DNA of 64,000 bases. Origin: Burkholderiales bacterium. GTDB lineage: Bacteria > Pseudomonadota > Gammaproteobacteria > Burkholderiales > Burkholderiaceae_C. The notes under the pieces are model-generated. The model was given only the letters and a program-made list of their open reading frames with translations, ran no database searches and was not told the origin of the DNA. Shown here piece by piece: positions 3,774-20,313 of this stretch. Where the stretch lies: NCBI GenBank assembly GCA_003963005.1, contig RXJW01000064.1:1-64000 (forward strand), written 5' to 3'. Both the position numbers and the translations under genes were made by a program. Each line of letters opens with the position of its first letter. Position 1 is the stretch's first letter.

Positions 3774-3803
3774 TTGACGAATCGGCCACCGCGTGGGAAC
3801 AAT
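3774..3803 (+). promoter_or_regulatory. Predicted sigma-70 promoter of the glucan locus
   Basis: TTGACG (3774-3779) and AACAAT (3798-3803) are separated by 18 nt, and transcription would start inside or just after the palindrome at 3805-3822. The -10 box matches the consensus at four of six positions. Confidence 0.5.
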
Positions 3804-3804
3804 G

Positions 3805-3822
3805 CATGTAAACGTTTACATG
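3805..3822. promoter_or_regulatory. LacI-family operator (18-bp perfect palindrome)
   Basis: CATGTAAACGTTTACATG is its own reverse complement and has the central CG and AAACGTTT core typical of LacI/GalR operators. It abuts the predicted -10 box and lies 36 nt ahead of the GH1 gene. The LacI gene two positions downstream is the obvious candidate ligand-responsive repressor. I saw no second copy in the locus. Confidence 0.8.
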
Positions 3823-3858
3823 AGACGTCGGCGCCTGCAAAGGTGACCGTCCGCACGG

Positions 3859-5202
3859 ATGAGACAACCGTTCCCGCCTGGCTTCCTGTGGGGCTGTGCG
3901 ACTTCCGCCTACCAGATCGAAGGCTCTCCGCTGGTCGATGGCGCCGGCGTGAGCAACTGGCACCGTTTCGTGCGCACGCCGGGCCGCGTGCTGGGCGGCG
4001 ACACGGGCGATGTGGCCTGCGACCACTACCGCCGCATGACGGACGACGTGGCCTTGATGCGCGAACTGGGCCTCACCGCCTACCGCTTCAGCATCGCATG
4101 GCACCGCGTGCAGCCCGAGGGCCGCGGGCGCATCAACGCGGCGGGTCTGGGCTTCTACGAGCGCCTGGTGGACGCGTTGCTGGCTGCCGGCATCCAGCCG
4201 CTGGTCACACTGCATCACTGGGATCTGCCCGCTGCGCTGGACGACCGCGGAGGCTGGCTCAACCCCGACATGCCCGACTGGTTCGCCGACTACGCGCAGG
4301 TGTGCTTCCGCGCGCTGGACGACCGCGTGAAGACCTGGGTCACGATCAACGAGCCCTGGGTCATCGCTGACGGCGGCTTCATGCATGGGACGTTGGCGCC
4401 GGGCCACAAGAGCGCCTTCGAGGCCGCGATCGCTGCGCACCGGCTGTTGCAAGGCCACGCCCGCGCGGTGCAGGCCTACCGCGCCGCGGGGCGCCACGAG
4501 ATCGGCCTGGTCGTCAACATCGAACCCAAGCACGTGCCGGCCGACGCCACCGATGCCGACCGCCACGCCGCCCGCCTGGCCGATGCCTACATGAACCGCC
4601 AGTACCTGGACCCGGCCCTGCTCGGCACCTACCCGGATGAACTCCGCGAGGTGTTCGGCGAGGCCTGGCCCGATTGGCCGGCGTCGGCCGTCGAGGCGCT
4701 GAGGCAGCCCCTCGACTTCCTGGGCCTGAACTACTACACCCGGGCCGTCGTCCGCCACGACCCCAAGGGCTGGCCGGTGCCTGCCGCGCCGCAGCGTCAA
4801 CCCGGCGGGATCTACACCGAGACGGGCTGGGAATCGCATCCGCAAAGCCTGAGCGACACCCTGGTCTGGATGCACGAGCGCTACGGCGGCCTGCCGCTGT
4901 ACGTCACCGAGAACGGAGCGGCCTTCTACGACCCCCCAAGTGCCGTGGACGGCCGTGTGGACGACCCGCTGCGCGTGCACTACCTGCGCACCCACATGGC
5001 CGCGGTGCGCGACGCCATCGACCGCGGCGCTGATGTGCGGGGTTACTGCGCCTGGTCGTTGCTGGACAACCTCGAATGGGCACTGGGCTATGCACGGCGC
5101 TTCGGCCTCGTCCACGTCGATTTCCAGACGCAGAAGCGCACGCCCAAGGCGAGCGCGCACTTCTATGCTGAGGTCATCGCCGCCCACGGCGCCAACCTCT
5201 GA
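3859..5202 (+). CDS. GH1 beta-glucosidase, cytoplasmic
   Basis: The 447-aa product is a complete single-domain family 1 glycosidase. FLWGCATSAYQIEG is the family N-terminal signature, acid/base Glu165 sits in TINEPW, and nucleophile Glu351 in YVTENGA. There is no signal peptide, so it acts in the cytoplasm. In this locus it would cleave sophorose or other short beta-glucosides left by the GH94 phosphorylase (inference). It is the first gene after the operator; the LacI gene follows after 6 nt. GH1 enzymes are broad (glucosidase, galactosidase, fucosidase), so linkage specificity rests on context. Confidence 0.9.
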   Translation: MRQPFPPGFLWGCATSAYQIEGSPLVDGAGVSNWHRFVRTPGRVLGGDTGDVACDHYRRMTDDVALMRELGLTAYRFSIAWHRVQPEGRGRINAAGLGFYERLVDALLAAGIQPLVTLHHWDLPAALDDRGGWLNPDMPDWFADYAQVCFRALDDRVKTWVTINEPWVIADGGFMHGTLAPGHKSAFEAAIAAHRLLQGHARAVQAYRAAGRHEIGLVVNIEPKHVPADATDADRHAARLADAYMNRQYLDPALLGTYPDELREVFGEAWPDWPASAVEALRQPLDFLGLNYYTRAVVRHDPKGWPVPAAPQRQPGGIYTETGWESHPQSLSDTLVWMHERYGGLPLYVTENGAAFYDPPSAVDGRVDDPLRVHYLRTHMAAVRDAIDRGADVRGYCAWSLLDNLEWALGYARRFGLVHVDFQTQKRTPKASAHFYAEVIAAHGANL

Positions 5203-5208
5203 CACGAC

Positions 5209-6231
5209 ATGAGCGCTACCCCCGCCACGATCAAGGACGTTGCCCGCGCTGCCGGTGTGTCTGTGGCCACCGTCTCCCGCGCGCTGAACGGCGCCGAGAA
5301 CGTGCTGCCGCACACGCGCCAGCGCATCCTGGACATCGCCCGCGACCTGCGGTATGCCCCGTCCGGGGCCGCGCGCAGCCTGATCACGCGCAAGACCGAC
5401 ACGGTGGGCGCGCTGCTGCCTGACTTGCACGGCGAGTTCTTCTCGGAACTCATCCGCGGCATCGACCAGGCGGCCCGCGCACGGGGCCTGCATCTGTTGC
5501 TCTCAAGCTCGCACGACGACGCCCTCGAGGCCGCGGCAGCCCTGCGCGCCATGAACGGCCGGGTTGACGGCCTGATCGTCATGTCGCCCCATGCGGATGA
5601 CGACTTCCTGTCCCAGAACCTGCCGCCCAACCTGCCTGCCGTGCTGCTGAACCCGGGGGCCATGGGGCCTGGCCTGCCAGCGTTTTCGGTGGACAACTTT
5701 GGCGGCGCGCGCGCGATGACGGCGCATCTCGTCAAGCAGGGCTACCGCCGCATTGCCTTCCTCGGCGGTCCCCCCGGCAACTTCGAGGCGCGTGAGCGCC
5801 AGCGCGGCTATCAGGCCGGGCTGGGGGCAGGCCAGGCGCCCCGGGTCTATGCCGGCGACTTCACCGAGCAGTCGGGCTACACGACGGGGGCTGCGCTCGC
5901 CACGCTGGCGCCGGCCGAGCGGCCCGACGCCCTGTTCTGCGCGAACGACATGATGGCGGTCGGCGCCTTGCAGGCTCTCGGCAATGCGGGCGTGCGAGTG
6001 CCTGCCGATCTGGCGCTTGCGGGCTTCGACGACATCCCGCTCGCGCGCTACATCCGCCCTGCGCTGAGCACGGTGCGCATCCCGATTGCCGCCATGGGTA
6101 CCCAGGCGCTTGACGCGCTGGCCCTGGCGCTAGGTTCACTCCACGACCCGGCCTCCCACCTGCCGTCCGCGGCAACGCTGATCCCCGTTGAGCTGATCGT
6201 GCGCGAGTCCTGCACGCCCCGACCCCCATGA
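5209..6231 (+). CDS. LacI-family transcriptional regulator of the glucan locus
   Basis: The 340-aa protein has an N-terminal helix-turn-helix (ATIKDVARAAGVSVATVSRAL), the hinge helix region (SGAARSLITRKTDTVG) and a periplasmic-binding-protein-like sugar-sensing domain ending in the DALFCANDMMAVGAL and AGFDDIPLARY motifs. It very probably binds the palindrome at 3805-3822 and autoregulates, since it lies in the same transcript 6 nt behind GH1. The effector would be a glucose oligosaccharide or its breakdown product (inference). Confidence 0.9.
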   Translation: MSATPATIKDVARAAGVSVATVSRALNGAENVLPHTRQRILDIARDLRYAPSGAARSLITRKTDTVGALLPDLHGEFFSELIRGIDQAARARGLHLLLSSSHDDALEAAAALRAMNGRVDGLIVMSPHADDDFLSQNLPPNLPAVLLNPGAMGPGLPAFSVDNFGGARAMTAHLVKQGYRRIAFLGGPPGNFEARERQRGYQAGLGAGQAPRVYAGDFTEQSGYTTGAALATLAPAERPDALFCANDMMAVGALQALGNAGVRVPADLALAGFDDIPLARYIRPALSTVRIPIAAMGTQALDALALALGSLHDPASHLPSAATLIPVELIVRESCTPRPP

Positions 6232-6260
6232 AGCGACTCACATTCAAAACAGGAGACGAC

Positions 6261-9188
6261 ATGAACAGAACCCGAACCCTGCGGCGCACTCGCCAGCATG
6301 CACTGGCTGCCGCCGTCGTGCTGGCACTGGCAGTCCCGGCGGCCTACGCACAGATCACGGGCGCCACGGTCCGCGGCCAGATCACGACCGCTAGCGGCAA
6401 GCCGCCCGAGGGCACCGAGGTGGTGGCCCTCAACAAGGCCAACGGCAACACCTACCGCACCCGAACGCTGGCAGACGGCAGCTATGTCCTGCTGGGCCTG
6501 AACCCCGGCCCCTACGAGATCCGCGTCGGCGGCGCAGCGAAAGGCAGCCCGGTCACCCTGTCCGTCGGCGAGAACGCGACGCTGGACCTGTCAAGCAGCG
6601 GCAACCAGCTCGACACCGTCGTCGTCAGCGGGACGGCGCAGCGCCAGGGCGTGCGGGACACGCAGGTCAGCACGCTCGTTTCCAACAAGATGATCGAGGC
6701 GCTGCCCCAGATCACGCGCAACTTCCTGTCCGCTGTCGATCTGGCACCCGGCGCGCGCTTTGAAACCGGCAGCGACGGCAGCACCCGCATCCGCGGTGGC
6801 GCGCAGAACGAAGACAGCGTCAACGTCTTCATCGATGGCGTCGGCCGCAAGAACAACATCCTGCGCGGCGGCGTCATCGGCCAGCAGGAGAGCCAGGGCA
6901 ACCCCTTCCCGCAGGGCGCCATTGCCGAGTACCGCGTGCTCACGCAGAACTACAAGGCCGAGTTCGACCAGCTCAGTTCGCTGGGAATTGCCGCGGTGAC
7001 AAAGTCCGGCACGAACGAATTCCATGGCGAGGCCTACGCCAACCGAACCGGCTCCAACTGGCGCGCCTACAGCCCCAAGGAGCGTGAACGGGAGCAGGCG
7101 GGCACGCCTCGGCCATCGTTCACCCAGATCGAAGACGGCTTCTCGATCGGTGGCCCGATCATGCTGGACAAGCTGCACTTCTTCCTGGCCTACGACGGCA
7201 AGTCGATCGAGCGGCCGCTGCAGGTGGTGGCCAAGAACATCGACAAATACCCGGGCAAGCCCGGCATCATCGGCCAGCTCGAAGGCCTCGCCGGGCCCTA
7301 CAAGCGCAAGTTCGACGAGCACCTCGTGTTCGGCAAGCTGTCAGCGCAGATCGATGACGAGCAAAAGCTCGACGCGAGTTTTACCGTCCGCGATGAGGAC
7401 TCCACCAACCTTGAGAGTGTCGACGGCATCGCTGCGGCGAGCACCGCCAAGAACTCGAAGAACACCGAGTCCCGACTGGACCTGGCCCATGAGTGGTCGC
7501 GTGGACCCTGGCTGAACGAGGCCAAGTTCGGTGTCGCCAACTCGCGCTTCAACCCGCATTCGAATGCGACGTCACCGCTGTTCCGCTACAAATATTCGCC
7601 GTCCAACGAACTGCGCAACACCCAGGACATCATCTGGGACGGCGGCGCACTGGACAAGCAGGACCGCAAGCAGGGCGAAACCTACCTCAAGGATGACCTG
7701 AGCTACACCGGCGTCACGGGCCACGTCATCAAGGGCGGTGCCCAGCTCAAGTTCATGAAGTACCGGCTTGGCGGCACGCAGTACGGCGTGCCTGCGGTCA
7801 ATGTGGTCGTCGACAAGACCACCGGCCAGCCCTATTACGCCAATGGGGTGTGCACCGGCACCAACCTGTCGTCCGACAAGCTGCAGAGCGACCAGTGCCA
7901 GATCACCCGGTCGGCACAGCCCATCGACGTCAACTTCAACAACAAGCAGCTTGGCCTCTACCTGCAGGACGACTGGGCCGTGACGAAACAGCTCGAAGTC
8001 TCCGTCGGCGCCCGTTGGGACTACGAAGACAACATGCTGAACAACAACTACAGCACGCCCGCAAACATCGTCGCAGCGCTGCGTGGGCCGGATGGACGCA
8101 CGATCGGCGGCATCACCGCGCCGACCGGGCAGACCTATGCCCAGTCCCTCGCCAAGGGCGGCGTGAACATCGACGACTACATCGCCACGGGAAGCTCGCG
8201 CAAGGCCTACAAGGGCGCCCTGGCGCCACGCCTGGGGTTCTCATTCGATGCCATGGGCGATCGCAGCACCGTCATCTACGGCGGCTGGGGGCGCAGTTAC
8301 GACCGCACCATGGCCAACCAGGCGCTGCAGGAACTGCAGCACAACGCGCAGCCCAATGGCGAGATCTGGCTGATCAAGAACAACTACAAGATGCCGTTCG
8401 CCGACCAAGTCAGCCTGGGCGTTCGCCAGGCGGTGGGTGAATGGAACGCCGATATCGCGCTGTCTCAGCAGCACGCCAAGAACCAGTTCATCTGGTTCAG
8501 CGGCAACCGTGACCCGAACGGCGGCTGGGGCACGCAGAGCTCCATCGACCCGCTGTGGGGCGGCCCCAGCGGCTATGGCAATCTGATCCTGGGCGATACC
8601 GTCGGCGAGATCAAGACGACCAGCCTGTTCGTCAAGCTCGACAAGCCGTACACCAGCGCCAGCGGCTGGAGTGCGACGGCCGCGTACACGCACGCCAAGG
8701 GCCGCACGACCAACAAGGACTGGAACACCGACATCTTCGACTGGATCTACGGTCGCAGCACACACGGCTGGAACCCGTCGGTGCTGTCAGCCAAGGACCG
8801 CCTCGTGCTGGCTGGCTTCACTGATCGCCTGCCCTGGGACATCGGCCTGTCCGGCAAGTGGACATGGGACACCGGCAACCCTCGCCGCATCACGAGTTGT
8901 GCCGCGGGTTGGGACAAGTGCGTGAACATCGAAGGCAAGTCCGACAAGTTCAGCCAGTTCGACGTCGGGCTGTCCAAGGATTTCCGGGTCGGCCCGGGTT
9001 CGCTGCGCCTGCGTGCCGATGTGCTGAACCTGTTCAACCGCACCAACTGGGGCTACTACGACGACTGGGGCGGCGGCCCGGGCAACCCGCAGAACTACCT
9101 GGGGGGTGACAACGCCAACCTGGGTGCGCGCAACGACATCCGTGGCGACATGCGCACCTACAAGGTCACACTCTCGTACGCGTTCTGA
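6261..9188 (+). CDS. TonB-dependent receptor with carboxypeptidase-regulatory N-domain (Oar-like)
   Basis: Outer-membrane active transporter of 975 aa. Signal peptide about residues 1-30 (ending VPAAYA), a carboxypeptidase-D-regulatory-like beta-sandwich about 31-110 (VRGQITTASGKPPEGTEVV), a plug domain (LDTVVVSGTAQR onward, with RGGAQNEDSVNVFIDGV), and a beta-barrel ending in aromatic TLSYAF as outer-membrane barrels do. The start at 6261 is chosen because AGGAGA precedes it; an ATG at 6228 overlaps the LacI stop but has no such site. In this locus it would import glucan fragments through the outer membrane. It resembles xanthomonad-type oligosaccharide receptors rather than siderophore receptors. 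Confidence 0.88.
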   Translation: MNRTRTLRRTRQHALAAAVVLALAVPAAYAQITGATVRGQITTASGKPPEGTEVVALNKANGNTYRTRTLADGSYVLLGLNPGPYEIRVGGAAKGSPVTLSVGENATLDLSSSGNQLDTVVVSGTAQRQGVRDTQVSTLVSNKMIEALPQITRNFLSAVDLAPGARFETGSDGSTRIRGGAQNEDSVNVFIDGVGRKNNILRGGVIGQQESQGNPFPQGAIAEYRVLTQNYKAEFDQLSSLGIAAVTKSGTNEFHGEAYANRTGSNWRAYSPKEREREQAGTPRPSFTQIEDGFSIGGPIMLDKLHFFLAYDGKSIERPLQVVAKNIDKYPGKPGIIGQLEGLAGPYKRKFDEHLVFGKLSAQIDDEQKLDASFTVRDEDSTNLESVDGIAAASTAKNSKNTESRLDLAHEWSRGPWLNEAKFGVANSRFNPHSNATSPLFRYKYSPSNELRNTQDIIWDGGALDKQDRKQGETYLKDDLSYTGVTGHVIKGGAQLKFMKYRLGGTQYGVPAVNVVVDKTTGQPYYANGVCTGTNLSSDKLQSDQCQITRSAQPIDVNFNNKQLGLYLQDDWAVTKQLEVSVGARWDYEDNMLNNNYSTPANIVAALRGPDGRTIGGITAPTGQTYAQSLAKGGVNIDDYIATGSSRKAYKGALAPRLGFSFDAMGDRSTVIYGGWGRSYDRTMANQALQELQHNAQPNGEIWLIKNNYKMPFADQVSLGVRQAVGEWNADIALSQQHAKNQFIWFSGNRDPNGGWGTQSSIDPLWGGPSGYGNLILGDTVGEIKTTSLFVKLDKPYTSASGWSATAAYTHAKGRTTNKDWNTDIFDWIYGRSTHGWNPSVLSAKDRLVLAGFTDRLPWDIGLSGKWTWDTGNPRRITSCAAGWDKCVNIEGKSDKFSQFDVGLSKDFRVGPGSLRLRADVLNLFNRTNWGYYDDWGGGPGNPQNYLGGDNANLGARNDIRGDMRTYKVTLSYAF

Positions 9189-9249
9189 TGCCGAACCGGA
9201 GCGCAGCGCGCGACCTGCGCGCTGCGGCTTCGCTCCCATGATGATTGCC

Positions 9250-10650
9250 ATGCACTTCAGCCGCCGGTTTTTGCTGGCCGGCGCCGGCTGCGCCCTGCTC
9301 ACACCGTGGGCCGCCGACGCCGACCCCAACGCCTTTCTCGACGACCTCGAGCGCCGCACCTTCGACTTCTTCTGGGAGACGACCGACGCGCGCACCGGTC
9401 TGGCCCCGGACCGCTGGCCCACGCCGTCGTTCGCCAGCATTGCGGCCGTCGGCTTTGCGCTGACGGCCTACCCGATCGGCGTCACCCGCGGCTACGTCAG
9501 CCGCGCGCAGGCCCGCGAGCGCACGCTGACCACGCTGCGCTTCTTCGCCGGCCTGCCGCAAGGGCCCGGCCGGCGCGGCGTGTCCGGCTACAAGGGCTTT
9601 TACTATCACTTCCTCGACATGAAGGAAGGCCTGCGCTTCGACCGCTGCGAGCTCTCGACGGTCGACACCGCGCTGCTGCTGATGGGTGCGCTGCATGCGC
9701 AGAGCTTCTTCGATGGCGATCACGCCGACGAGGCCCGCATCCGGAGCCTGGTGGACACCCTCTACGGCCGCGTCGACTGGGCCTGGGCCCAGGTGCGCCC
9801 GCCGTCCATCAGCCATGGCTGGCTGCCCGAGAGCGGCTTCATCGCCTCCGACTGGAAGGGCTACAACGAGGCCATGATGGTCTACCTGCTGGCCCTGGGC
9901 TCGCCCACGCGGCCGGTCAAGCCGGAGGCCTGGAACGCCTGGACCAGCACCTACGACCGCGGCAGCTGGGGCGAGAGCTACGGGCAGACGCTGCTGCGTT
10001 TCCCGCCGCTGTTCGGCCACCAGTTCACGCACTGCTGGGTCGACTTCCGCGGCATCCGCGATGCCTACATGCGTGACAAGGGCTTCGACTACTTCGAGAA
10101 CTCCCGCCGCGCCACCTACGCGCAGCAGGCCTATGCCGCCGCCAACCCGCTCGGCTGGCAGGGCTACAGCAACGAGGTGTGGGGCGTGAGTGCGAGCGAC
10201 GGCCCGGCCGACGTCACGCTCCCCTACCGCACCACCCGCGGTCAGGTCGAGCCCCGTCGCTTCATCAGCTATGCGGGCCGCGGCATGGGGCTGTACGACG
10301 ATGGCACGCTGGCGCCCTACGCGGCGGGCAGTTCGATCGCCTTCGCACCGGAGATCGTGATTCCCGCGCTGCAGGCCATCCGGGCCCGCTACCCGCACAC
10401 CTGGGGCCGCTACGGCTTCTGGGACGCCTTCAACCCCAGCTTCACCGACCCGACTGTCAAGCTCACGCACGGCCGCATCGAGGCCGGCCAGGGCTGGGTG
10501 GACACCGACATGCTCGGCATCGACCAAGGCCCGATGCTTGCGATGCTGGGCAACCACCGCGGCGAGCTGGTCTGGCAGATGATGCGCAAGAACGCCCACC
10601 TCGTGCGCGGACTCCGGCGCGCCGGATTCACCGGCGGCTGGCTCGGTTGA
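9250..10650 (+). CDS. Exported GH144-type glucanase (PF10091 glycoamylase family)
   Basis: About 466 aa. The N-terminus MHFSRRFLLAGAG has a twin-arginine motif and a hydrophobic stretch, so Tat export to the periplasm is likely. The body carries family features: FDFFWETTDARTGLAPDRWP, CELSTVDTALLLMGAL, SDWKGYNEAMMVYLLALGSP, the HCWVDFRGIRDAYMRDKG segment and GWQGYSNEVWGVSASDGP. The characterised members of this Pfam family that I know of are GH144 endo-beta-1,2-glucanases, which cut beta-1,2-glucan into sophorooligosaccharides. ATGs at 9238 and 9241 are alternative starts; no strong ribosome site decides between them. It follows the receptor after about 60 nt. Confidence 0.8.
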   Translation: MHFSRRFLLAGAGCALLTPWAADADPNAFLDDLERRTFDFFWETTDARTGLAPDRWPTPSFASIAAVGFALTAYPIGVTRGYVSRAQARERTLTTLRFFAGLPQGPGRRGVSGYKGFYYHFLDMKEGLRFDRCELSTVDTALLLMGALHAQSFFDGDHADEARIRSLVDTLYGRVDWAWAQVRPPSISHGWLPESGFIASDWKGYNEAMMVYLLALGSPTRPVKPEAWNAWTSTYDRGSWGESYGQTLLRFPPLFGHQFTHCWVDFRGIRDAYMRDKGFDYFENSRRATYAQQAYAAANPLGWQGYSNEVWGVSASDGPADVTLPYRTTRGQVEPRRFISYAGRGMGLYDDGTLAPYAAGSSIAFAPEIVIPALQAIRARYPHTWGRYGFWDAFNPSFTDPTVKLTHGRIEAGQGWVDTDMLGIDQGPMLAMLGNHRGELVWQMMRKNAHLVRGLRRAGFTGGWLG

Positions 10651-10695
10651 CGTGAACGCCCGGCACGCACGGCCACAGAGGTCCTGAATGACATC

Positions 10696-10779
10696 CCAAC
10701 ACAGCCACAGAGGCACACAGACACAGAGAGTGCGGGCGGCTGCTCTCTTGGCGCCTCTGTGCCTCTGTGGCTGTGTTGG
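10696..10779. repeat. 21-bp perfect inverted repeat between the glucanase and the ABC operon
   Basis: Arms at 10696-10716 and 10759-10779 are exact reverse complements; each contains CCACAGAGGCAC or its complement. The 42-nt loop holds a further small stem, AGAGAG (10725-10730) with CTCTCT (10743-10748). The transcript would fold into a long hairpin 33 nt ahead of the binding-protein ATG. It lacks a T-run. It could be a dispersed repeat, an mRNA-stabilising or attenuating hairpin, or a partial terminator. Confidence 0.8.
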
Positions 10780-10812
10780 CTGTTTGGGCAGTCTTGCCTT
10801 CGCCGAATCGTC

Positions 10813-12093
10813 ATGCGTCGTCGCGTTCTGCTGACCGCCTCCGCCGCTGCGCTTGCCGGTTGCGCCCGCGACGGCGGCCCGACCGTGCTGCGCTTCTGGG
10901 CCATGGGCCGCGAGAGCGAAGTCGCCGCCGAACTGATGGCCGGCTTCGAGCGCGAGAACCCCGGCGTGCGCGTGAAGGTCGAGCAACTGCCCTGGACGGC
11001 TGCGCACGAAAAGCTCCTGACGGCCTTCGCGGGCGACGCCACGCCCGACCTCGCGCAGGTGGGCAACACCTGGCTGCCGGAGATGCAGGCATTGGGTGCG
11101 CTGGAGCCGCTGGACGGCTGGCTCGCCCGCACCCCGGCCGTCCTGCCTGACGACTACTTCGCCGGCATCTGGGCCACCAATGCACCCGGCGGGGTGCGGG
11201 TGGGTTTGCCCTGGTACGTGGACACGCGGCTGATGTTCGTGCGGCAGGACCTGCTGCAGCGCGCCGGGGTCGCCGACATGCCGCAGGACTGGGCCGCGTG
11301 GGCCCGGGCCCTGGCGCGCCTTCGGCAGGCGGGCATGGCATCCCCGCTGCTGCTGCCGACCAACGAGTTCGAACCCCTGCTGGCCCTGGCGCTGCAGCAA
11401 CCCGGCGAGGTGCTGCGCGAGGGCGGCCGCTTCGGCAACTTTTCCGCGGACGACTTCCGCCGGGCACTGGCCTTCTATGCCGAGCGCTTTCGCGTGGGTG
11501 ATGCCCCAGGCCTGACGAACAACCAGGTCGCCAACGTGTGGCAGGAGTTTGGTCGGGGCACGTTTGCGTTCTACATCTCGGGGCCCTGGAACATTGGCGA
11601 GTTCAAGCGCCGGCTGCCGGGCGATCTCGCAGGCGCGTGGACGACGGCCGAGCTGCCGGGGCCTGTGCCAGGGCAGGGGCCGGGAGCATCCATCGCCGGT
11701 GGCGCAAGCCTTGCGATCTTCCGGCGCTCGCGTCACAAAGCCGAGGCCTGGGCGCTGATGCGCTACCTGAGCCGGCCCGACGTTCAACTCGACTTCTACC
11801 GCCTCACCGGCGATCTGCCGCCCCGGCGCAGCACCTGGACGCTGCCGCTTGGCGGCGGCGCCAGCCTCGCCCAGGACCGCCACGCCGCCGCCTTCCGCCG
11901 TCAGCTCGAGCGCGTGCGCCCCACGCCGGCCGTGCCGGAATGGGAGCGCATCATGCAGGAGATGCAGCTGGCCGCCGCGCGCGTGGTCGGCGGCCGTCAG
12001 AGCGAAGACACTGCCGTGCGAGACCTGGACCGGCGCGTGGACGGCATCCTGGAGAAGCGCCGCTGGATGCTCGACCGGCGGGGCGCAGCATGA
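10813..12093 (+). CDS. Sugar ABC transporter substrate-binding lipoprotein
   Basis: The 426-aa product belongs to extracellular solute-binding family 1. A lipoprotein signal (MRRRVLLTASAAALAGC) places Cys17 as the lipidated residue after the LAG box. VLRFWAMGRESEVAAELMAGFE and the DLAQVGNTWLPEM block are typical of sugar-binding proteins. It would bind imported glucan oligosaccharides in the periplasm. The ATG has no good ribosome site upstream (the inverted repeat ends 33 nt before it). Its stop overlaps the next start by 4 nt, the first of four such overlaps. Confidence 0.88.
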   Translation: MRRRVLLTASAAALAGCARDGGPTVLRFWAMGRESEVAAELMAGFERENPGVRVKVEQLPWTAAHEKLLTAFAGDATPDLAQVGNTWLPEMQALGALEPLDGWLARTPAVLPDDYFAGIWATNAPGGVRVGLPWYVDTRLMFVRQDLLQRAGVADMPQDWAAWARALARLRQAGMASPLLLPTNEFEPLLALALQQPGEVLREGGRFGNFSADDFRRALAFYAERFRVGDAPGLTNNQVANVWQEFGRGTFAFYISGPWNIGEFKRRLPGDLAGAWTTAELPGPVPGQGPGASIAGGASLAIFRRSRHKAEAWALMRYLSRPDVQLDFYRLTGDLPPRRSTWTLPLGGGASLAQDRHAAAFRRQLERVRPTPAVPEWERIMQEMQLAAARVVGGRQSEDTAVRDLDRRVDGILEKRRWMLDRRGAA

Positions 12094-12986: not shown

Positions 12987-13795
12987 CCGCACGTGCGTGG
13001 CTGGTCAACAGCCTGCTCTGGGCGCTCGCTGCGCTGGCGGTGTTCCCGCTGGTGTGGATGGTCTGCGTGTCGCTGATGCCCACGGGCAGCGCCGCCAGCC
13101 TGCCGCCGCCATTGATCCCGCAGCATCCGACGCTGGAACACTACCGCGTGCTGCTTGGCGACGGCGGCCTCAAGCGTGCCTTCGCCAACAGCCTCGGGGT
13201 GGCCCTCGTCAGCACGGCGGTGTCGGTCAGCTTCAACACGGCGGCAGGCTACGCCTTTGCCAAGCTGCGCTTTCGGCACCGGGAGCGCGTGTTCGGCCTG
13301 TTGATCGCGGCCCTGGTCATCCCGGGCCAGGTGGCGATGCTGCCGCTGTTCCTCATGCTCAAGGGCCTGGGCCTTGTGAACACCTGGATGGGCGTGCTGA
13401 TCCCGGGCATGGCGGGCATCTTCGGCATCTTCCTGGTGCGCCAGTACGCCCGCGGCGTGCCGGATGAGCTGCTCGAAGCTGCCCGGCTGGATGGCGCGGG
13501 CGAGTGGCGGATCTTCTGGAACATCGTGCTGCCCACGCTCAAGCCGGTGCTGGTGACGCTGGCCGTGTTCGCCTTCCTGGGCAGCTGGAACGATTTCATG
13601 TGGCCGCTCATCGTGCTGACCGATGGCGACATGCACACGCTCCCGGTCGCGCTGGCGGCCCTGTCGCGCGAGCACGTGCAGGACAGCGAACTGATGATGG
13701 CTGGCGCTGTCATCACGGTGCTGCCGGTGCTCGCCTTGTTTGTCGCCCTGCAGCGCTACTACATGCAGGGCCTGCTGATGGGAAGTGTGAAATGA
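12983..13795 (+). CDS. Sugar ABC transporter permease 2 (MalG/UgpE type)
   Basis: The 270-aa inner-membrane partner of permease 1 has six predicted helices and the EAA loop LLEAARLDGAGEWRIFWNIVLP. It overlaps both neighbours by 4 nt (ATGA), so the importer genes are translationally coupled to the enzymes behind. No ATPase subunit is encoded anywhere in the locus, so a shared MalK/MsmX-type ATPase from elsewhere must energise it (inference). Confidence 0.9.
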   Translation: MTARAWLVNSLLWALAALAVFPLVWMVCVSLMPTGSAASLPPPLIPQHPTLEHYRVLLGDGGLKRAFANSLGVALVSTAVSVSFNTAAGYAFAKLRFRHRERVFGLLIAALVIPGQVAMLPLFLMLKGLGLVNTWMGVLIPGMAGIFGIFLVRQYARGVPDELLEAARLDGAGEWRIFWNIVLPTLKPVLVTLAVFAFLGSWNDFMWPLIVLTDGDMHTLPVALAALSREHVQDSELMMAGAVITVLPVLALFVALQRYYMQGLLMGSVK

Positions 13796-16755
13796 CGTGG
13801 CGCGCCGTCGTGGCCTGGGTGGGTGTGTGTCTGGCGATGCCGGCACCGGCCGCCGTGCTCGATCCGATGAAGGACCTCGCGGCCTGGCAGGCCAGCGCAT
13901 CCGACCAGGTCCAGGCCCGCCTGCGCCGCGACGCGCGGGACGACAGCCTGTGCCTGGACTACGACTTCGCCGGAGTCTCCGGCTATGCCGTGATGCGCCG
14001 CGCGCTGCCGGTGAACTGGCCGGCGGACTTTGCGCTGACCGTGCCGCTCAAGGGTCAGGGCGCGGGCAACGACGTGCAGATCAAGTTCGTCGACGCCAGT
14101 GGCGACAACGTCTGGTGGGTCAATCGACCGGCGATGGCGTTGCCCGCCACGTTGAACGAGCTGCGCTTCAAGCGTCGCCATGTCGACTTCGCCTGGGGAC
14201 CGGCTGCGGACCGCCAGCTCACGCGGACCCAGGTGCTGGAGTTCGTCGTCGTGGCCGGCCAGCAGGGCGGCGGCGCCGGTTCGCTGTGCGTGGGCGCCGT
14301 GCGGCTGGACGCCCGCGAGCCGGCGCCGGCGGTGTGGCCGGCCCCGCAGCGTCAGACGGGCGCCGGCGAGCTGACGCTCGATTACCGACGCTTGCGCGAG
14401 TTCAACGGGCTGTGGTTTGCCCGGGGCGCTGCCAGCCGCGTGGAGGTGTCTGACGATGGCCGCCGCTGGAAGCTGCTTTCGGCCCAGCCCGCGCGGGCGA
14501 TGTTCCTCGGTGAGCAGGAGTGGCGCTGGCTGCGCCTGCGTCACGACGGCCGCCAGCCGCCGGACGTCGAGCTGCGCGATGCCCGCCAATGGCCCGACCG
14601 CAACGCGGCCGTGTCCGAGCTGGCGCGCGCGCTGCCGCGGGGCGACCTGCCCCGGGCCTTCCTGGGCGAGCAGAACTACTGGACCGTCGTGGGCGTGGAT
14701 GGCGGCGCGCAGCGCTCGGGTCTCGTCAGTGAAGACGGCGCCATCGAGCTGACGCGAGGGGGACCGAGCATCGAGCCGGCCGTGCAGCTCGCCGACGGCC
14801 GCCTCGTCACGTGGGCCCAGGCACGCATCGAGCACTGGCTCGTCGAGCAGGTGATGCCCGTCGTGCAGTGGCGGCATGCCGAGGTCGAGCTGCGCGTGGA
14901 GGCGGGCGCTGATGGGGCACCGACGGCGCCGCACCTGCTGGCCCGCTACCTGCTGCGCAACCCCACCGCCCGTCCGCAGCGTTATGCCCTGTTGCTGGCT
15001 CTGCGGCCCTGGCAGGTCAACCCGCCGCAGCAGTTCCTGTCCACGCAGGGCGGCGTCAGCCCGGTGCCATCGATGCGCTGGTTGGGCGGTCGGCTGGAAG
15101 CCGTCAACCTGCGCCTCACGCCGCGGGAGGCACCGACCGAGGTGCGTGCCGCGCCCTGGCACGCCGGGCCGGGGCTGGCCACGCTGCAGACCGCCCTGCC
15201 GCTGGTGGAGCTGGTCGATCCTGAACAGCTGCCCTCCGCCTTGATGCGCTTCGACGTGACGCTGGCGCCGGGGGAATCGTGCGCGCTCGGCTGGGTGACG
15301 GGAGGCGATGCCGCGGCCCTGGACACTCGGCTGGCCCTCGCGGCCGCGCGCTGGCGCGACCGCCTGGGCCTGCTGGAACTGCAGCTGCCCTCCGCAGCCC
15401 AGCCGGTGGCCGACCGCATGCGCAGTGCGCTGGCGCAGATCCTGATGTCCCGCGAAGGGCCGGCACTGCGGCCGGGCACGCGTTCCTATGCACGGTCCTG
15501 GGTGCGCGACGGCGCCATGATGGTGGCGGGCCTGGTGCGCATGGGCGAGGTGCAGGCGGCGCGCGAGTTCGTCGACTGGTACGCGGGCCACGTCTTCGCG
15601 TCGGGCAAGGTGCCTTGCTGCGTGGACCAGCGTGGTGCCGATCCCGTCGTGGAGAACGACAGCCACGGCCAATACCTCTTCGCCGTGGCCGAGCTCTGGC
15701 GCCACACGCAGGACCGCGCGCTGCTGCAGCGCCACTGGCCCCACGTGCAGCGTGTCCTGGCCTGGATGGAGGCGCTGCGCCAGAGTCAGCGTCGCCCCGG
15801 GGCCGACCCGCGCTTTCATGGGCTCATGCCGCCGTCCATCAGCCATGAAGGCTATTCCGACAAGGCCGCCTACTCGTACTGGGACGACTTCTGGGCCCTG
15901 CGCGGCTACAAGGATGCCGTGCAGATCGCGCAGGCCTTGGGCGACGCTGTGCTGGCGGCTCGCTGGGCGTCGTGGCGCGACGAGTTCGAGGCCGACCTGA
16001 ACGTGTCGGTCCTGGCGACGGTACGGCACTACGGGCTGGACCACATCGCCGGTGCCGCGGACCGTGGCGACTTCGATGCCACGTCCACGACCGTGGCGCT
16101 CAACCCTGCACAGGCCGACCGCCTGCCCGCCGAGCTGCTGCGTGGCACTTTCGATCGCTACGTGAAGGACACGCAGGCCCGCATCGATGGCCGCAAGCCG
16201 TGGCGCGACTACACGCCCTACGAACTGCGCAACGTCAGCGCCCTCGTGCGCCTGGGCCGCGTGGAGGACGCCCACCGCGCGCTGGCCTGGTTCTTCACGC
16301 ACCAGCGCCCGGCGGGCTGGCAGCAATGGGCCGAGGTGGTGTTGCCGGATGCCCGCGAGGTGCGCTTTCTGGGCGACATGCCGCACGCCTGGGTGTCGTC
16401 TGACTACCTGCGCTCGGCGCTCGATCTGGTCGCCTACGAGCGTGAGGCGAGCGGCAGCCTCGTGCTCGCCGCCGGCGTGCCGGCGGCCTGGCGGGCTGCT
16501 GGCGACATCGGCGTGGCCGGCCTGTCCACGGCCTGGGGGCGCCTGGACTACCGCCTGCTTCACCGCGCTGACGGTGGCTGGACTCTGCACATCGACCGCC
16601 GCCCGGAGCGCCTGCCCGGCGAACTGCGACTGTCCTGGCCGGGCGATGATGCGCTGCCGCGTGCCCACACCGCATCCGGGCCTGTCGCCTGGCAGGGCCG
16701 CGAGCTGCCCCTGCCGCCTGACGTCATCACGATACAACTCGACCCGGCACCATGA
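13792..16755 (+). CDS. Large exported six-hairpin glycosidase-like enzyme, family not recognised
   Basis: The 987-aa product begins with a signal peptide (MTWRAVVAWVGVCLAMPAPAA). The N-terminal half looks like two or three beta-sandwich modules; the first reads like a carbohydrate-binding or discoidin-like domain (WWVNRPAMALPATLNELRF). The C-terminal half, from about residue 540, is an alpha/alpha six-hairpin domain with SYARSWVRDGAMMVAGLVRMGE, VVENDSHGQYLFAVAELWRH and a YSYWDDFWALRGYKDA segment. RDGA-type sequences carry acidic catalytic residues in GH15/GH78-like folds. It is likely a periplasmic debranching or end-trimming enzyme on the same glucan (inference). It overlaps permease 2 and the GH94 gene by 4 nt each. 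Confidence 0.6.
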   Translation: MTWRAVVAWVGVCLAMPAPAAVLDPMKDLAAWQASASDQVQARLRRDARDDSLCLDYDFAGVSGYAVMRRALPVNWPADFALTVPLKGQGAGNDVQIKFVDASGDNVWWVNRPAMALPATLNELRFKRRHVDFAWGPAADRQLTRTQVLEFVVVAGQQGGGAGSLCVGAVRLDAREPAPAVWPAPQRQTGAGELTLDYRRLREFNGLWFARGAASRVEVSDDGRRWKLLSAQPARAMFLGEQEWRWLRLRHDGRQPPDVELRDARQWPDRNAAVSELARALPRGDLPRAFLGEQNYWTVVGVDGGAQRSGLVSEDGAIELTRGGPSIEPAVQLADGRLVTWAQARIEHWLVEQVMPVVQWRHAEVELRVEAGADGAPTAPHLLARYLLRNPTARPQRYALLLALRPWQVNPPQQFLSTQGGVSPVPSMRWLGGRLEAVNLRLTPREAPTEVRAAPWHAGPGLATLQTALPLVELVDPEQLPSALMRFDVTLAPGESCALGWVTGGDAAALDTRLALAAARWRDRLGLLELQLPSAAQPVADRMRSALAQILMSREGPALRPGTRSYARSWVRDGAMMVAGLVRMGEVQAAREFVDWYAGHVFASGKVPCCVDQRGADPVVENDSHGQYLFAVAELWRHTQDRALLQRHWPHVQRVLAWMEALRQSQRRPGADPRFHGLMPPSISHEGYSDKAAYSYWDDFWALRGYKDAVQIAQALGDAVLAARWASWRDEFEADLNVSVLATVRHYGLDHIAGAADRGDFDATSTTVALNPAQADRLPAELLRGTFDRYVKDTQARIDGRKPWRDYTPYELRNVSALVRLGRVEDAHRALAWFFTHQRPAGWQQWAEVVLPDAREVRFLGDMPHAWVSSDYLRSALDLVAYEREASGSLVLAAGVPAAWRAAGDIGVAGLSTAWGRLDYRLLHRADGGWTLHIDRRPERLPGELRLSWPGDDALPRAHTASGPVAWQGRELPLPPDVITIQLDPAP

Positions 16756-19700
16756 CCGCGCACCTCCTCCGCAACACCGCCGGTCTCCAGGCCGAGCTGC
16801 TGTCCCACGGCGCCGTGCGCCGGTTGATGGCCGGGCCGGCGTTGATGATCAATCTCTTTCCCGGCAACGAGCTGGAAGGCGGCCCGGCCAATGTGTGGTT
16901 GCGCCGCCGGGTGGACGGTGGGAGCTGGGAGGCTGTGCCGCTGCTGGGGCCGCAGTCCCCTTTGCAGGCCCATGGGGCCGCGCAGGCCTTCGAGATGCGC
17001 GGCCGTTGGCGGGGGCTGGACGTGCAACTGCAATTGCGCCTGGCCGAGGCCGCGCCGGTGCTGTTCTGGCACCTGCGGGTGCACAACGCTGGCAACGTGC
17101 CCTGCGAGATCGAGCCCGTGCTGGTGCAGGACGTGGGCCTCGCGGACTACGGGGCGGCCCGCACCAACGAGTTTTATGTGAGCCATTACCTGGACCTCAC
17201 GCCGCTGCAGCACGCCACGCACGGCGTGCTGCTGGCGGTGCGCCAGAACCAGCCGCAGCGGGGCGAGCATCCCTGGTTGCTGGCCGGGTCTCTCGGGCGT
17301 GCGGCGTCGTTCGCGACCGATGCCGTGCAGGTGTGGGGCCATGCCGCCCGCGAGGGCGCGCTGCCGCCGGGGCTGCTGAACGGCCTGCCCGGACGGCGCC
17401 TGCAGCACGAGCATGCGGTGGTGGCGTTGCAGGACGAGACGGTGCGACTGGCACCCGGCGAGGGCAGGGCGGCCGGCTTCTTCATCGGCGTTCAGGGCCA
17501 CCATGCCGCGGCGAGCGCTGACGCGGATCTGGCCCGGCTGCCCGAGTGGCTGGCCCTGGCGCAGGCGCAACCGGTGCCGATGCAGGACGTGTCGGGTCAT
17601 GCCCCGGCTCGCAGCCTGTTCACGAGCGCGCCGCTGCTCAACGGGGACGAGCTGCCGACCCCCGCCCTGACCGAGTTGTTCCCCGGTGAGCGCCGCCACG
17701 AGGAATGGGCCGACGGTGTGCTGCAGAGTTTCTTCACGGGCGACGCCGCGCACGTGGTGCTGCGGGCGAAGGAGCTGCGCGTGCAGCGCCCGCACGGCCA
17801 CATCCTGCGCAGTGGCCAGCACCTGGTGCCCGACGAGACGGCGCTCACCTCGACTTGCTGGATGGCGGGCGTCTTCCATTCGATGCTGACCCAGGGGCAC
17901 GTCAGCATCAACCGGCTGCTGTCCACGCAGCGCAGCCTGCTGGGCTTGTTCCGCACCGCGGGCCTGCGGCTGTTCGTGCGGCAGCCGGGCGCCGGTTGGC
18001 AGTTGCTGGGCCTGCCCTCGGCCTTCGAGATGGCACCGCAGCGCTGCCGGTGGCTGTACGCGCACGGTGGCGGCCTCATCGAGGTGGTGGCCGAAGCCGG
18101 GGCGCAGCCCGATGCGATGGCCCTGAGCCTGCGGGTGCTCGCCGGCCACGCCCTGGGCCTGCGCGCCACGCTTCACCTGGCACTCGGTGGCGACGATGGT
18201 GCATCACCGCTGGAACCCGTGTGGATGCACCGCGGCGAGGAAGTTCGCGTCACAGCGCCACCGGGCAGCGAGCTGGCGGCGCGTTTCCCCGCAGGCGGGC
18301 TCACGGTCCGTGCGTCGGGCCTCGCGATCGTGGGGGACGACGGCAGGCTGTACGACGACGGCGCGAGCCGCGGTGAGCCCGTGGTATGCCTCGACTTCCA
18401 TCCGGCCAGCGCTTTCACACTGAGCCTGCGTGCTGACCTGGTGCAGGCGCCGGCCGCTCCGCCGCAGCCCCTGGTGTTGCCCACCTGGCCCGCTGCCGCC
18501 ACGGCACTGGCATCGCTGCGCGACATCCTGCCCTGGTACGCCCACAACGCGCTGGTGCACTACCTGTCGCCGCGTGGCCTGGAACAGTACTCCGGAGGCG
18601 GCTGGGGCACGCGGGACGTCTGCCAGGGCCCGCTGGAGATGCTGCTCGCGCTTGGCCAGACCGCGCCGGTGCGCGACCTGCTGCTGCGGGTGTTCAGCGC
18701 GCAGAACCCGGATGGTGACTGGCCGCAGTGGTTCATGTTCTTCGAACGCGAGTCGACGATCCGGGCCGGGGATTCGCACGGTGACATCGTCTTCTGGCCG
18801 CTGCTGGGTCTGGCGCAGTACCTCATCGCATCGGGCGACACCACGTTGCTGGCGGAGGTTCTGCCTTTCCACGCCGAGCCGCCGGCGCCGCTGGCGGCCC
18901 ACGTGGATCGCGCGCTGGGGCTGATCCGCCGCCGCGTTGTGCCCGGCACGGGGCTGGCAGCCTACTGGCATGGCGACTGGAACGACTCGCTCCAGCCTGC
19001 CGACCCCGCCTTGCGTGAACGTCTGTGCAGTGCCTGGACCGTGACCCTGCACCACCAGATGCTGCACACGCTGTCGACCGCCTACGGTCGGTTGGGCCGG
19101 CATGCCGACGCGGCCCGGCTGGCGGCCGAAGCGATGGGTGTGCGGGCGGAGTTCCAGCGCCTGCTCGTCCAGGACGACGTCGTTGCCGGCTACGTGCTGT
19201 TCCCCGAAGCTGGCGAGCGCGAACTCTGGATCCACCCGCGGGACGCCCGAACCGGCCTGCGCTTCAGCCTGCTGCCGATGATGCATGGGGTGCTCGACAG
19301 CCTCTTCACGCCCCGGCAGGCCGCGCTTCAGGCCGACCTCATCGAGCGCCACCTGAAGGGTCCAGACGGCGCCCGCCTGTTCGACGCGCCCCTGCCCTAC
19401 CGAGGTGGCCCATCACGCCTGTTCCAGCGGGCCGAGACGAGCAGCTTCTTCGGCCGCGAGATCGGCATCATGTACGTGCATGCCCACCTGCGGTATGCGC
19501 AGATGCTGGCGCACCTGGGGCGTGCAGAAGCCTTCCTGGAGGCGCTGTCGCTGGCGCACCCGGTAGCGCTGCGCGAGCGGGTGCCCACGGCCAGCCCGCG
19601 CCAGGCCAACTGCTACTACTCCAGCTCCGACGCTGCCTTCGCCGACCGCTACGAAGCCCAGGCGCACTACGGCCGTGTGCTGGCCGGCGAAGTGGCGCTG

Positions 19701-20039
19701 GACGGCGGCTGGCGCATCTACTCCAGCGGCCCGGGGATCGCGCTCGGCCTGGTCATCGGGTCGCTGCTGGGGCTGCGTCTGGAAGCGGATGCATTGGTGG
19801 TGGATCCGGTGATGCCATCGCGGCTCGACGGGCTGACGGTCGACTTGCTGCTGGCAGACCTGCGTTTCGAGTTGACCTACCGGGTCGGGCCTCTGGGCCA
19901 TGGCGTGGTGCGGGTGGTTGACGAGCGCGGTCAGGGCCTGCCGGCCATGCGCCGCCCGCATGCCTATCGTCTGGGCGCACTGGCGCTGGCCAGGCCTCCC
20001 GCCGGCACGGTGCACCGCTGGACCATCGAACTCGGCTGA
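16752..20039 (+). CDS. GH94 phosphorylase, probable 1,2-beta-oligoglucan phosphorylase
   Basis: The 1095-aa cytoplasmic protein (no signal peptide) has an N-terminal beta-sandwich, a helical linker and a six-hairpin catalytic domain. GDWND at residues 741-745 (18972-18986) includes the general-acid Asp conserved in GH94. EQYSGGGWGTRDVCQGPLEML, FFERESTIRAGDSHGD and AETSSFFGREIGIMYVHAHLRY are further domain landmarks. The length matches characterised 1,2-beta-oligoglucan phosphorylases (about 1,100 aa, as in Listeria innocua) rather than cellobiose phosphorylases (about 820 aa). It would split sophorooligosaccharides with phosphate into glucose-1-phosphate and a shorter chain. Last gene of the operon. 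Cellodextrin or another beta-glucan linkage is the main alternative. Confidence 0.8.
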   Translation: MTAHLLRNTAGLQAELLSHGAVRRLMAGPALMINLFPGNELEGGPANVWLRRRVDGGSWEAVPLLGPQSPLQAHGAAQAFEMRGRWRGLDVQLQLRLAEAAPVLFWHLRVHNAGNVPCEIEPVLVQDVGLADYGAARTNEFYVSHYLDLTPLQHATHGVLLAVRQNQPQRGEHPWLLAGSLGRAASFATDAVQVWGHAAREGALPPGLLNGLPGRRLQHEHAVVALQDETVRLAPGEGRAAGFFIGVQGHHAAASADADLARLPEWLALAQAQPVPMQDVSGHAPARSLFTSAPLLNGDELPTPALTELFPGERRHEEWADGVLQSFFTGDAAHVVLRAKELRVQRPHGHILRSGQHLVPDETALTSTCWMAGVFHSMLTQGHVSINRLLSTQRSLLGLFRTAGLRLFVRQPGAGWQLLGLPSAFEMAPQRCRWLYAHGGGLIEVVAEAGAQPDAMALSLRVLAGHALGLRATLHLALGGDDGASPLEPVWMHRGEEVRVTAPPGSELAARFPAGGLTVRASGLAIVGDDGRLYDDGASRGEPVVCLDFHPASAFTLSLRADLVQAPAAPPQPLVLPTWPAAATALASLRDILPWYAHNALVHYLSPRGLEQYSGGGWGTRDVCQGPLEMLLALGQTAPVRDLLLRVFSAQNPDGDWPQWFMFFERESTIRAGDSHGDIVFWPLLGLAQYLIASGDTTLLAEVLPFHAEPPAPLAAHVDRALGLIRRRVVPGTGLAAYWHGDWNDSLQPADPALRERLCSAWTVTLHHQMLHTLSTAYGRLGRHADAARLAAEAMGVRAEFQRLLVQDDVVAGYVLFPEAGERELWIHPRDARTGLRFSLLPMMHGVLDSLFTPRQAALQADLIERHLKGPDGARLFDAPLPYRGGPSRLFQRAETSSFFGREIGIMYVHAHLRYAQMLAHLGRAEAFLEALSLAHPVALRERVPTASPRQANCYYSSSDAAFADRYEAQAHYGRVLAGEVALDGGWRIYSSGPGIALGLVIGSLLGLRLEADALVVDPVMPSRLDGLTVDLLLADLRFELTYRVGPLGHGVVRVVDERGQGLPAMRRPHAYRLGALALARPPAGTVHRWTIELG

Positions 20040-20263
20040 GCCTCGCCAGCGTTTGCCCCCTCGGGGCGTAGCAGCCCCGCGCCATGCGAGCTGCGTGGTT
20101 TGCCTTGCGAGCGACCATGTGATGTACCGCTCGCCAGGTGGCTCAGGCCTGCGTCGGTCCGCGGGTGCAAAGGGGCGCGAGGAGTGTCGGTAGGCTTGAC
20201 AGTTCAGCGGTCCTGGCGAGAAACCTGCGCCCAGATCCATTTGTAATCAACAGCTTGCACTTA

Positions 20264-20280
20264 TGGCACGGGCTTTGCTT
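20264..20280 (+). promoter_or_regulatory. Sigma-54 promoter upstream of a PEP-CTERM gene
   Basis: TGGCACGGGCTTTGCTT fits the -24/-12 consensus (TGGCACG-N4-TTGCW) at every conserved position, with GG (20265-20266) and GC (20277-20278) exactly 12 nt apart. Transcription would begin near 20289, about 25 nt before the ATG at 20314. Confidence 0.85.
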
Positions 20281-20313
20281 GTTGCTACTCGCAACATCTT
20301 TTCAGGAGTCGTC

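Follow-up and report, generated by a model that had tools for sequence, protein, structure and literature searches.

A predicted LacI-controlled operon for beta-1,2-glucan utilisation in a Burkholderiales bacterium and its conserved glycosidase outside recognised families

Gene composition of the operon and its predicted substrate

The window analysed in this study, a stretch of 64,000 nucleotides from a Burkholderiales bacterium (assembly GCA_003963005.1, contig RXJW01000064.1), contains at positions 3774-20039 of its plus strand an operon that, taken as a whole, very probably represents a LacI-controlled system for the utilisation of beta-1,2-glucan. The genes are arranged in the order GH1 (glycoside hydrolase family 1), LacI, TonB-receptor-like barrel, GH144, solute-binding protein (SBP), MalF, MalG, UNK and GH94, where UNK denotes a protein of 987 amino acids (aa) outside recognised families that may open a type of ring closure found in some of these glucans. 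Symbionts and pathogens produce beta-1,2-glucans, whose consumption by other bacteria is poorly mapped. Within a single gene run, the locus combines a phosphorylase with an exported glucanase, an importer SBP of lipoprotein type and a receptor-like barrel, and the genera that carry related loci include plant pathogens. Literature is cited by its PMC number.

The first-pass annotation of this DNA had listed a promoter and operator followed by these genes, UNK excepted, in this order, and all of them were found on the plus strand as claimed. The ATGA overlaps that it described are present at 6228, 12090, 12983, 13792 and 16752 and tie five gene pairs together. Among the three proteins that had been singled out there for family assignment, those encoded from 9250 and 16752 proved to be of the predicted types, namely a PF10091 protein and a 1,2-beta-oligoglucan phosphorylase (SOGP)-type member of GH94, whereas the third one, UNK, yielded no Pfam match; it had been named among the checks of that annotation and passed over in its reasoning.

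The gene at 9250-10650, with alternative start candidates at 9238 and 9241, encodes the GH144-type endo-beta-1,2-glucanase. Its best match in the PDB is the solved chain 8xul (XCC2207; E 3.6e-168, residues 29-465), and CpSGL (5gzk) was matched with E 3.1e-29. XCC2207 is the GH144 enzyme XcSGL (8XUL), CpSGL corresponds to 5GZK, and XcSGL is reported to be active on beta-1,2-glucan with a narrow specificity (PMC12102758). The residues E239, F286 and Y367 of XcSGL, which are described as SGL-clan residues (PMC12102758), are all kept in the window protein as E207, F255 and Y341; this mapping uses a 14-residue chain offset worked out here, and the solved protein is the E239Q mutant. The families GH192-194 were rejected for the glucanase, as the GH144 enzyme XcSGL is nearest and the GH194 chain 8xuk reached just E 3.5e-5. 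A Tat-like signal (SRRFLLAG) was recognised by eye. Among 87 GH144 relatives, 80 N-termini could be located, and loose patterns detected a lipobox-like motif in 61 and an RR-type motif in 25 of them; on visual inspection, xanthomonads commonly show the lipobox type and Burkholderiales the RR type.

The protein encoded at 16752-20039 contains the domains SOGP_N (PF21958, 202 bits) and SOGP_2nd (PF21250, 137 bits), both above cut-off; PF06165 likewise exceeded its cut-off (28.9 versus 23 bits), whereas PF17167 stayed below (22.3 versus 27 bits). In the alignment with the LpSOGP chain 5h3z (E 2.5e-159), which was read by eye with the chain number equal to the paper number plus one, all twelve LpSOGP residues that have been tied to subsites, phosphate or catalysis (PMC5309861) are identical: Y141, Q621, R630, D631, W758, D760, R907, E917, Y922, H924, Y1004 and S1005. 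Two of these, R907 and Y141, hinder cellobiose- and chitobiose-type acceptors in LpSOGP (PMC5309861). An assignment as cellodextrin, laminaribiose or cellobiose phosphorylase was rejected, since cellobiose phosphorylase chains gave 1.7e-8 at best versus 2.5e-159 for LpSOGP.

The CUT1 SBP (10813-12093; PF01547) carries a lipobox-like LAGC motif. It matched the chain 3uor best (E 3.6e-139), followed by Lin1841 (5ysb, E 1.4e-52) and by a third chain at 1.2e-30. The protein 3uor was solved as a sugar-binding ATP-binding cassette (ABC) protein and is presumably of Xanthomonas origin; because it groups by sequence with the SBP of the window locus, sophoro-oligosaccharides are a candidate ligand that it may bind. 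Lin1841 is the sophoro-oligosaccharide binder of an ABC importer (PMC12369401, PMC8861115). The substrate class named in the first-pass annotation, beta-1,2-glucan of linear, cyclic or alpha-1,6-cyclised form, is thus supported by the types of the GH144, GH94 and Lin1841-like proteins. Neither of the sequence outcomes that the annotation would have counted as refuting, a 9250 protein outside GH144 and a GH94 grouping with cellodextrin or laminaribiose phosphorylases, was observed.

The first gene (3859-5202) encodes a GH1 beta-glucosidase of 447 aa that matches PF00232 and TIGR03356 above cut-off and contains the motifs TINEPW (residues 162-167) and YVTENGA (residues 348-354); no signal peptide was seen by eye. 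Nearly all of its 60 listed solved relatives are beta-glucosidases or beta-glycosidases by name, without linkage information. As GH1 and the CUT1 SBPs are broad families, the operon might in principle be a general scavenging locus for beta-1,3- or beta-1,4-glucans in which the beta-1,2 linkage has been over-read. We regard this as very improbable, as beta-1,2 bonds are indicated by the SOGP residues, by the closeness of the GH144 protein to XcSGL, by the similarity of the SBP to Lin1841 and by the CGS phosphorylase domain of sister loci.

The cytoplasmic step varies among related loci. Four Duganella loci contain a CGS-type GH94 protein of 1.27 kaa after UNK and GH1, three of the copies being 79-87% identical to that of one Duganella locus; relatives of this protein (55-59%) are encoded nearby on the opposite strand in L128, L046 and L044, and a GH3 gene follows UNK in L142 and L105. 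No GH94, CGS-type, GH3 or GH1 gene was found in the fetched flanks of five Xanthomonas loci.

Predicted uptake and processing of the glucan

According to the proposed pathway, beta-1,2-glucan or large fragments of it would enter via the TonB-receptor-like barrel, and the exported GH144 enzyme would convert them by endolytic cuts into sophoro-oligosaccharides. Exported UNK would remove a linkage beyond the reach of GH144, GH94 and GH1. The lipoprotein SBP together with MalF and MalG would import the oligosaccharides with the help of an ATPase encoded elsewhere, whereupon the cytoplasmic GH94 enzyme would phosphorolyse chains with a degree of polymerisation of at least 3 to glucose 1-phosphate and the GH1 enzyme would split sophorose to glucose.

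The barrel (6228-9188, 986 aa) is Oar-like, with matches to PF25183, PF13620 (CarboxypepD_reg) and PF00593. Although the barrel and CarboxypepD_reg domains are present, no PF07715 plug match was obtained at 0.001, and no PDB relative was detected at E <=0.01; its dependence on TonB is put forward as a prediction. The MalF-type (12090-12986, scanned from 12126) and MalG-type (12983-13795) permeases both match PF00528. No gene for the importer ATPase is present in the operon. Elsewhere in the genome three OB_MalK matches were above cut-off, next to genes that on visual inspection resemble those of other ABC systems, and the importer may share an ATPase with such a system. Among 89 relatives of the SBP, a loose pattern detected a lipobox-like motif in 65 of the 67 with a located mature start, and only one has an aspartate at position +2. 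By the Lol rule most such lipoproteins would be sorted to the outer membrane, an odd destination for the binding protein of an ABC importer.

The substrate is probably foreign, because the window's own genome contains neither an OpgG/OpgD (PF04349) match nor a PF10091 match beyond the window. A recycling of the cell's own osmoregulated periplasmic glucans would fit the observations that Xanthomonas makes an alpha-1,6-cyclised beta-1,2-glucan (PMC11228985), that Xanthomonas species carry the gene block and that synthase-size open reading frames with PF10091 are found in two genomes from the genus of the window. The composition of the window's genome and the outer-membrane receptor, which suggests external uptake, nevertheless make such a role quite unlikely.

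The unclassified glycosidase UNK

UNK (13792-16755) is a probable glycosidase of the six-hairpin type, without an assigned family, with a signal-like N-terminus and beta-sandwich/CBM32-like domains, CBM standing for carbohydrate-binding module. The window copy passes no Pfam cut-off, has no Pfam match at 0.001 and no credible PDB relative. A profile of 55 sequences, comprising the window protein and 54 of the 78 listed UNK proteins from related loci, revealed CBM32-type domains at about profile positions 190-310 and weak matches to CBM11 chains near the N-terminus. When 26 members were scanned singly against Pfam, matches were obtained to F5/8-type-C (20 members), GH78-type (13), GDE_C (10) and GH95-type (1) models. 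The GDE_C model PF06202 (GH133) gave 14.1 versus 21 bits for the window protein, 27.6 bits for the relative in genome G287 and E <=0.1 in 10 of the 26 members (best 1.3e-5). The NCBIfam model TIGR01577 of a GH15-type oligosaccharide amylase was weakly matched by 19 of the 26 (best 2.3e-7), with the window protein far below cut-off, and no match at E <=0.1 was found in these members to PF00723 (GH15), to the GH94 models or to PF10091. The family matches of the catalytic part in Pfam and NCBIfam are thus solely to alpha-glycosidase families. On the evidence of these comparisons, the catalytic half of UNK is a distant relative of GH15, GH133 and GH78, whose members cut alpha bonds.

In profile comparisons by hhalign, the C-terminal two thirds of UNK scored 69% over 364 columns with GH15, in contrast to 19% over 118 columns with GH94, 9% over 359 columns with GDE and 1.3% with GH144, the inputs covering 18 of 30 loci for GH15, 18 of 23 sequences for GH94 and 85 of 87 for GH144. 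The Escherichia coli proteins treA and ygjK, which we take to represent GH37 and GH63, scored 3.6% and 1.4% as single sequences, and these families were rejected for UNK.

Acidic residues that are invariant in all 55 UNK sequences include E621, D623, E686, D698, D760, D762, E811 and E848. The last of these is aligned with the first glutamate of the GH15 motif LAEEY, which we take to be the general base, and E848 is proposed as the base of UNK. Inverting phosphorylases are not known to need such a glutamate, and a phosphorylase function was rejected on account of its invariance at this position. The distance from E686 to E848 amounts to 162 residues and that from D698 to E848 to 150, compared with an acid-base spacing of 165-167 in six of the 18 GH15 sequences, those in which all motifs were found. 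E686 is the preferred candidate for the catalytic acid and, as hhalign left E686 unpaired with the GH15 acid, D698 a possible alternative.

The N-termini of many of the 78 relatives look signal-like by eye, and those of some Luteimonas proteins lipobox-like, so that UNK probably works outside the cytoplasm. UNK is very probably an exported inverting glycosidase of some kind. To our knowledge, the alpha-1,6 closure of the ring is the only alpha bond known in natural beta-1,2-glucans. An alpha-type glycosidase would have a job in the operon, since GH144, GH94 and beta-glucosidase enzymes are not expected to cut this closure. The closure has been described in Xanthomonas, Ralstonia and Cereibacter (PMC11842490, PMC11228985). 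We therefore put forward, tentatively and as a reading that could well prove wrong, that UNK may be an inverting alpha-glucosidase cleaving the single alpha-1,6 bond of alpha-1,6-cyclised beta-1,2-glucans of the Xanthomonas/Ralstonia type. That it might also found a new GH family of exported inverting alpha-1,6-glucosidases dedicated to such glucans, as exemplified by the Xanthomonas glucohexadecaose, is a still more speculative suggestion. If UNK opens alpha-1,6 rings, a way of consuming them would be described here for the first time, and UNK would be a candidate for their turnover in Xanthomonas itself; the protein is singled out here as the conserved enzyme that bears on whether the ring closure has a dedicated enzyme.

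Distribution of UNK and of the gene block

Strong UNK matches were found in 13 of 200 genomes sampled from the family and in 12 of 398 sampled from the phylum, the two samples overlapping in G000; weak UNK matches (G168 in the family; G319, G460, G560 and G226 in the phylum) were left out before counting. Stand-alone GH144, defined as a PF10091 match at E <1e-50 so that weaker matches, mostly synthase-size reading frames, were dropped, is present in 17 genomes of the family and 36 of the phylum sample. UNK and stand-alone GH144 occur together in 11 of the 13 and in 12 of the 12 UNK genomes, respectively, with Fisher p values of 2e-12 and 4e-14 that are not corrected for kinship.

The 80 named loci compared here are the best 80 of at least 585 relatives fetched by means of the UNK gene, and several end at contig edges. 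They contain GH144 in 68 cases, SBP in 71, MalF in 72, MalG in 73, a TonB-dependent receptor (TBDR) in 67 and LacI in 64, as well as GH1 in 33 and SOGP-type GH94 in 16. Among the first 26 UNK stretches, 19 carry GH144, SBP, MalF, MalG and UNK together, four hold the distant UNK type only, and UNK stands alone in three (L039, L040 and L052, the latter at a contig end). The block LacI-TBDR-GH144-SBP-MalF-MalG-UNK is shared by members of the beta-, gamma- and alphaproteobacteria from the genera Roseateles, Ideonella, Duganella, Luteimonas, Lysobacter, Stenotrophomonas, Pseudoxanthomonas, Xanthomonas and Brevundimonas, and by this recurrence in relatives it is more than a chance arrangement.

Several observations weigh against a dedicated role of UNK in opening alpha-1,6-cyclised beta-1,2-glucans. 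The score of the UNK and GH15 profiles is modest, GDE, treA and ygjK were compared as single sequences, and the hhalign alignment does not place E686 opposite the GH15 acid. Two of the 13 UNK genomes in the family sample lack a stand-alone GH144. The 114 residues from R572 to E686 compare with 125-128 in GH15; D698 fits in this respect (126), yet its acid-base distance of 150 does not. GH144 genomes without a strong UNK match are found in 6 of 17 cases in the family and 24 of 36 in the phylum, and one of the twelve UNK genomes of the phylum (G477) has the distant UNK type only, located away from its own GH144 gene. This distant group (L057-L060, 33-36% identity) occurs in other neighbourhoods outside any beta-1,2-glucan locus. 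Since UNK served as the query for retrieving the 80 loci, they say nothing on blocks lacking it.

Two other functions of UNK have to be weighed. It might act as an inverting beta-1,2-glucosidase of the exo type, or as an inverting sophorohydrolase, and trim sophoro-oligosaccharides in the periplasm prior to import, without any alpha bond being involved. The operon is shared with GH144, an extra depolymeriser would be useful in loci without adjacent GH94 or GH1, the (alpha/alpha)6 fold class includes the beta-specific families GH94 and GH144, and the UNK profile touches one chain of the beta-acting GH94 enzyme chitobiose phosphorylase at E 1. This function appears rather unlikely, as the catalytic part matches alpha-glycosidase families and not the GH94 or PF10091 models, and the hhalign scores with GH94 and GH144 fall below that with GH15. 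UNK might instead remove another decoration or process some other glucan, for instance an alpha-glucan resembling starch or dextran, in a locus for mixed substrates. The kinship to GH15, GH133 and GH78 would suit this function, as would the UNK genes of Roseateles koreensis and Roseateles oligotrophus, the two of the 13 UNK genomes in the family sample that lack a stand-alone GH144. With GH144 present in every UNK genome of the phylum sample and no alpha-glucan gene among the rest of the operon, we consider it somewhat improbable as well. The opening of alpha-1,6 rings remains our preferred, if tentative, function for UNK.

In R. koreensis (L074) the UNK gene lies between genes for DNA polymerase I and those on the side of a H+-pyrophosphatase, and the UNK gene of R. 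oligotrophus (L069) is near that of a protein 89% identical to the R. koreensis pyrophosphatase.

Promoter, operator and predicted regulon

A sigma-70-like promoter was identified at 3774-3803, plus strand (TTGACG, an 18-nt spacer and AACAAT; 9 of 12 matches), compared with a mean of 0.0 such pairs in 50 shuffles. Directly 3' of the -10 element lies the LacI-family operator palindrome TGTAAACGTTTACA (3807-3820), for which the 6.24-Mb assembly contains a single site at <=1 mismatch. Family scans identify the second gene (5209-6231, 340 aa) as a LacI-family regulator. The operon is predicted to be under LacI control, presumably by repression that an inducer relieves. A search for further operators in the genome with a degenerate pattern yielded 2 one-mismatch sites versus 4 (forward) and 3 (reverse) for the controls, which were taken as chance.

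Of 63 related loci that could be tested, 51 have an operator-like site with <=2 mismatches upstream of lacI, against 0.01 expected from order-1 resampling; a GH1 gene precedes lacI in 9 of the remaining 12. A MalK-type ATPase gene is found in the flanks of 35 of the 80 loci, and 22 of these 35 genes have an operator-like site upstream, located in 11 loci between divergent GH1 and ATPase genes. The operator-linked genes would thereby encode the ATPase of the importer in those genera. Further neighbours are genes for glucokinase and 6-phosphogluconolactonase (L141), glucokinase (L121), KDPG aldolase and a dehydratase (L142) and zwf-like proteins, the last of these named from their sequence. Operator sites and neighbours together suggest a single regulon. 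Such a regulon is called into question by the 13 of 35 ATPase genes that lack the site and by the fact that operators of this type are generic to many LacI-family regulators.

Comparison with known systems

The lin1839-1841 cluster of Listeria innocua resembles the window operon in its SOGP-type GH94, its sophoro-oligosaccharide SBP of an ABC importer and its beta-glucosidase (PMC12369401, PMC8861115), but belongs to a Gram-positive bacterium and has GH3 in place of GH1; the accessible portions of these sources mention neither an outer-membrane receptor nor an UNK-type protein. The SGL cluster of Ignavibacterium album comprises GH144, an SOGP homologue, a protein similar to the CGS C-terminus and a Sop-binding SBP, but differs in a GH35 glycosyltransferring enzyme and in its phylum, and no UNK-type protein is mentioned in the accessible text; a putative GH3 is listed there, yet a beta-glucosidase homologue is said to be absent (PMC8861115). 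SGR_2423-2427 of Streptomyces griseus combines a GH1 enzyme acting on sophoro-oligosaccharides with a GH193 protein and ABC genes, in contrast to GH144 in the window; the organism has no outer membrane, and the accessible portion mentions no GH94 in the cluster (PMC12369401). Xanthomonas campestris encodes the characterised GH144 enzyme XCC2207, and although this species was outside the fetched loci, five other Xanthomonas loci carry the block from LacI to UNK, unlike the window without GH94 and GH1 in their flanks.

The distinct route envisaged in the first-pass annotation has consequently lost part of its novelty: for I. album, beta-1,2-glucan fragments had been proposed in 2022 to be taken up by TonB-dependent and ABC transport combined (PMC8861115), and SGR_2426 of Streptomyces, with W291, Q229 and M171 as subsite +1 residues, was shown to be a GH1 beta-1,2-glucosidase in 2025 (PMC12369401). 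What is added here is the proteobacterial locus with UNK, of which no description was found among the matches listed in the open-access literature, the scope of the search, which excluded subscription papers and supplements. Two points had escaped that annotation: the locus occurs widely, also in Xanthomonas, and it recurrently includes a glycosidase without an assigned family. In a search of the Xanthomonas literature for XCC2202, XCC2203, XCC2205, XCC2206, XCC2208 and XCC2209, only XCC2208 was named; it is listed among receptors without a canonical plug (PMC1790865). XAC2312 of Xanthomonas citri is described as a membrane protein or TonB receptor, and may or may not be the receptor of the block. 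For Roseateles and Pelomonas, no title on beta-1,2-glucan use was among the matches listed.

Host and further features of the window

Judged by UNK, the nearest named kin of the host are Roseateles and Pelomonas strains, with Roseateles puraquae at 84%. The assembly has a contamination score of 5.76%; since two sampled genomes of the same genus carry all nine genes, the locus is no contamination artefact. The GH144-SBP intergenic gap of 162 nt holds an inverted repeat at 10696-10779 with 38-nt arms that are 84% complementary. No second copy was detected within the window, but similar peptide readings in reading frames of other stretches of the same genome (L151 and L152) suggest a dispersed repeat. 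Directly downstream of the GH94 gene, a gene at 20263-20937 encodes a PEP-CTERM protein.

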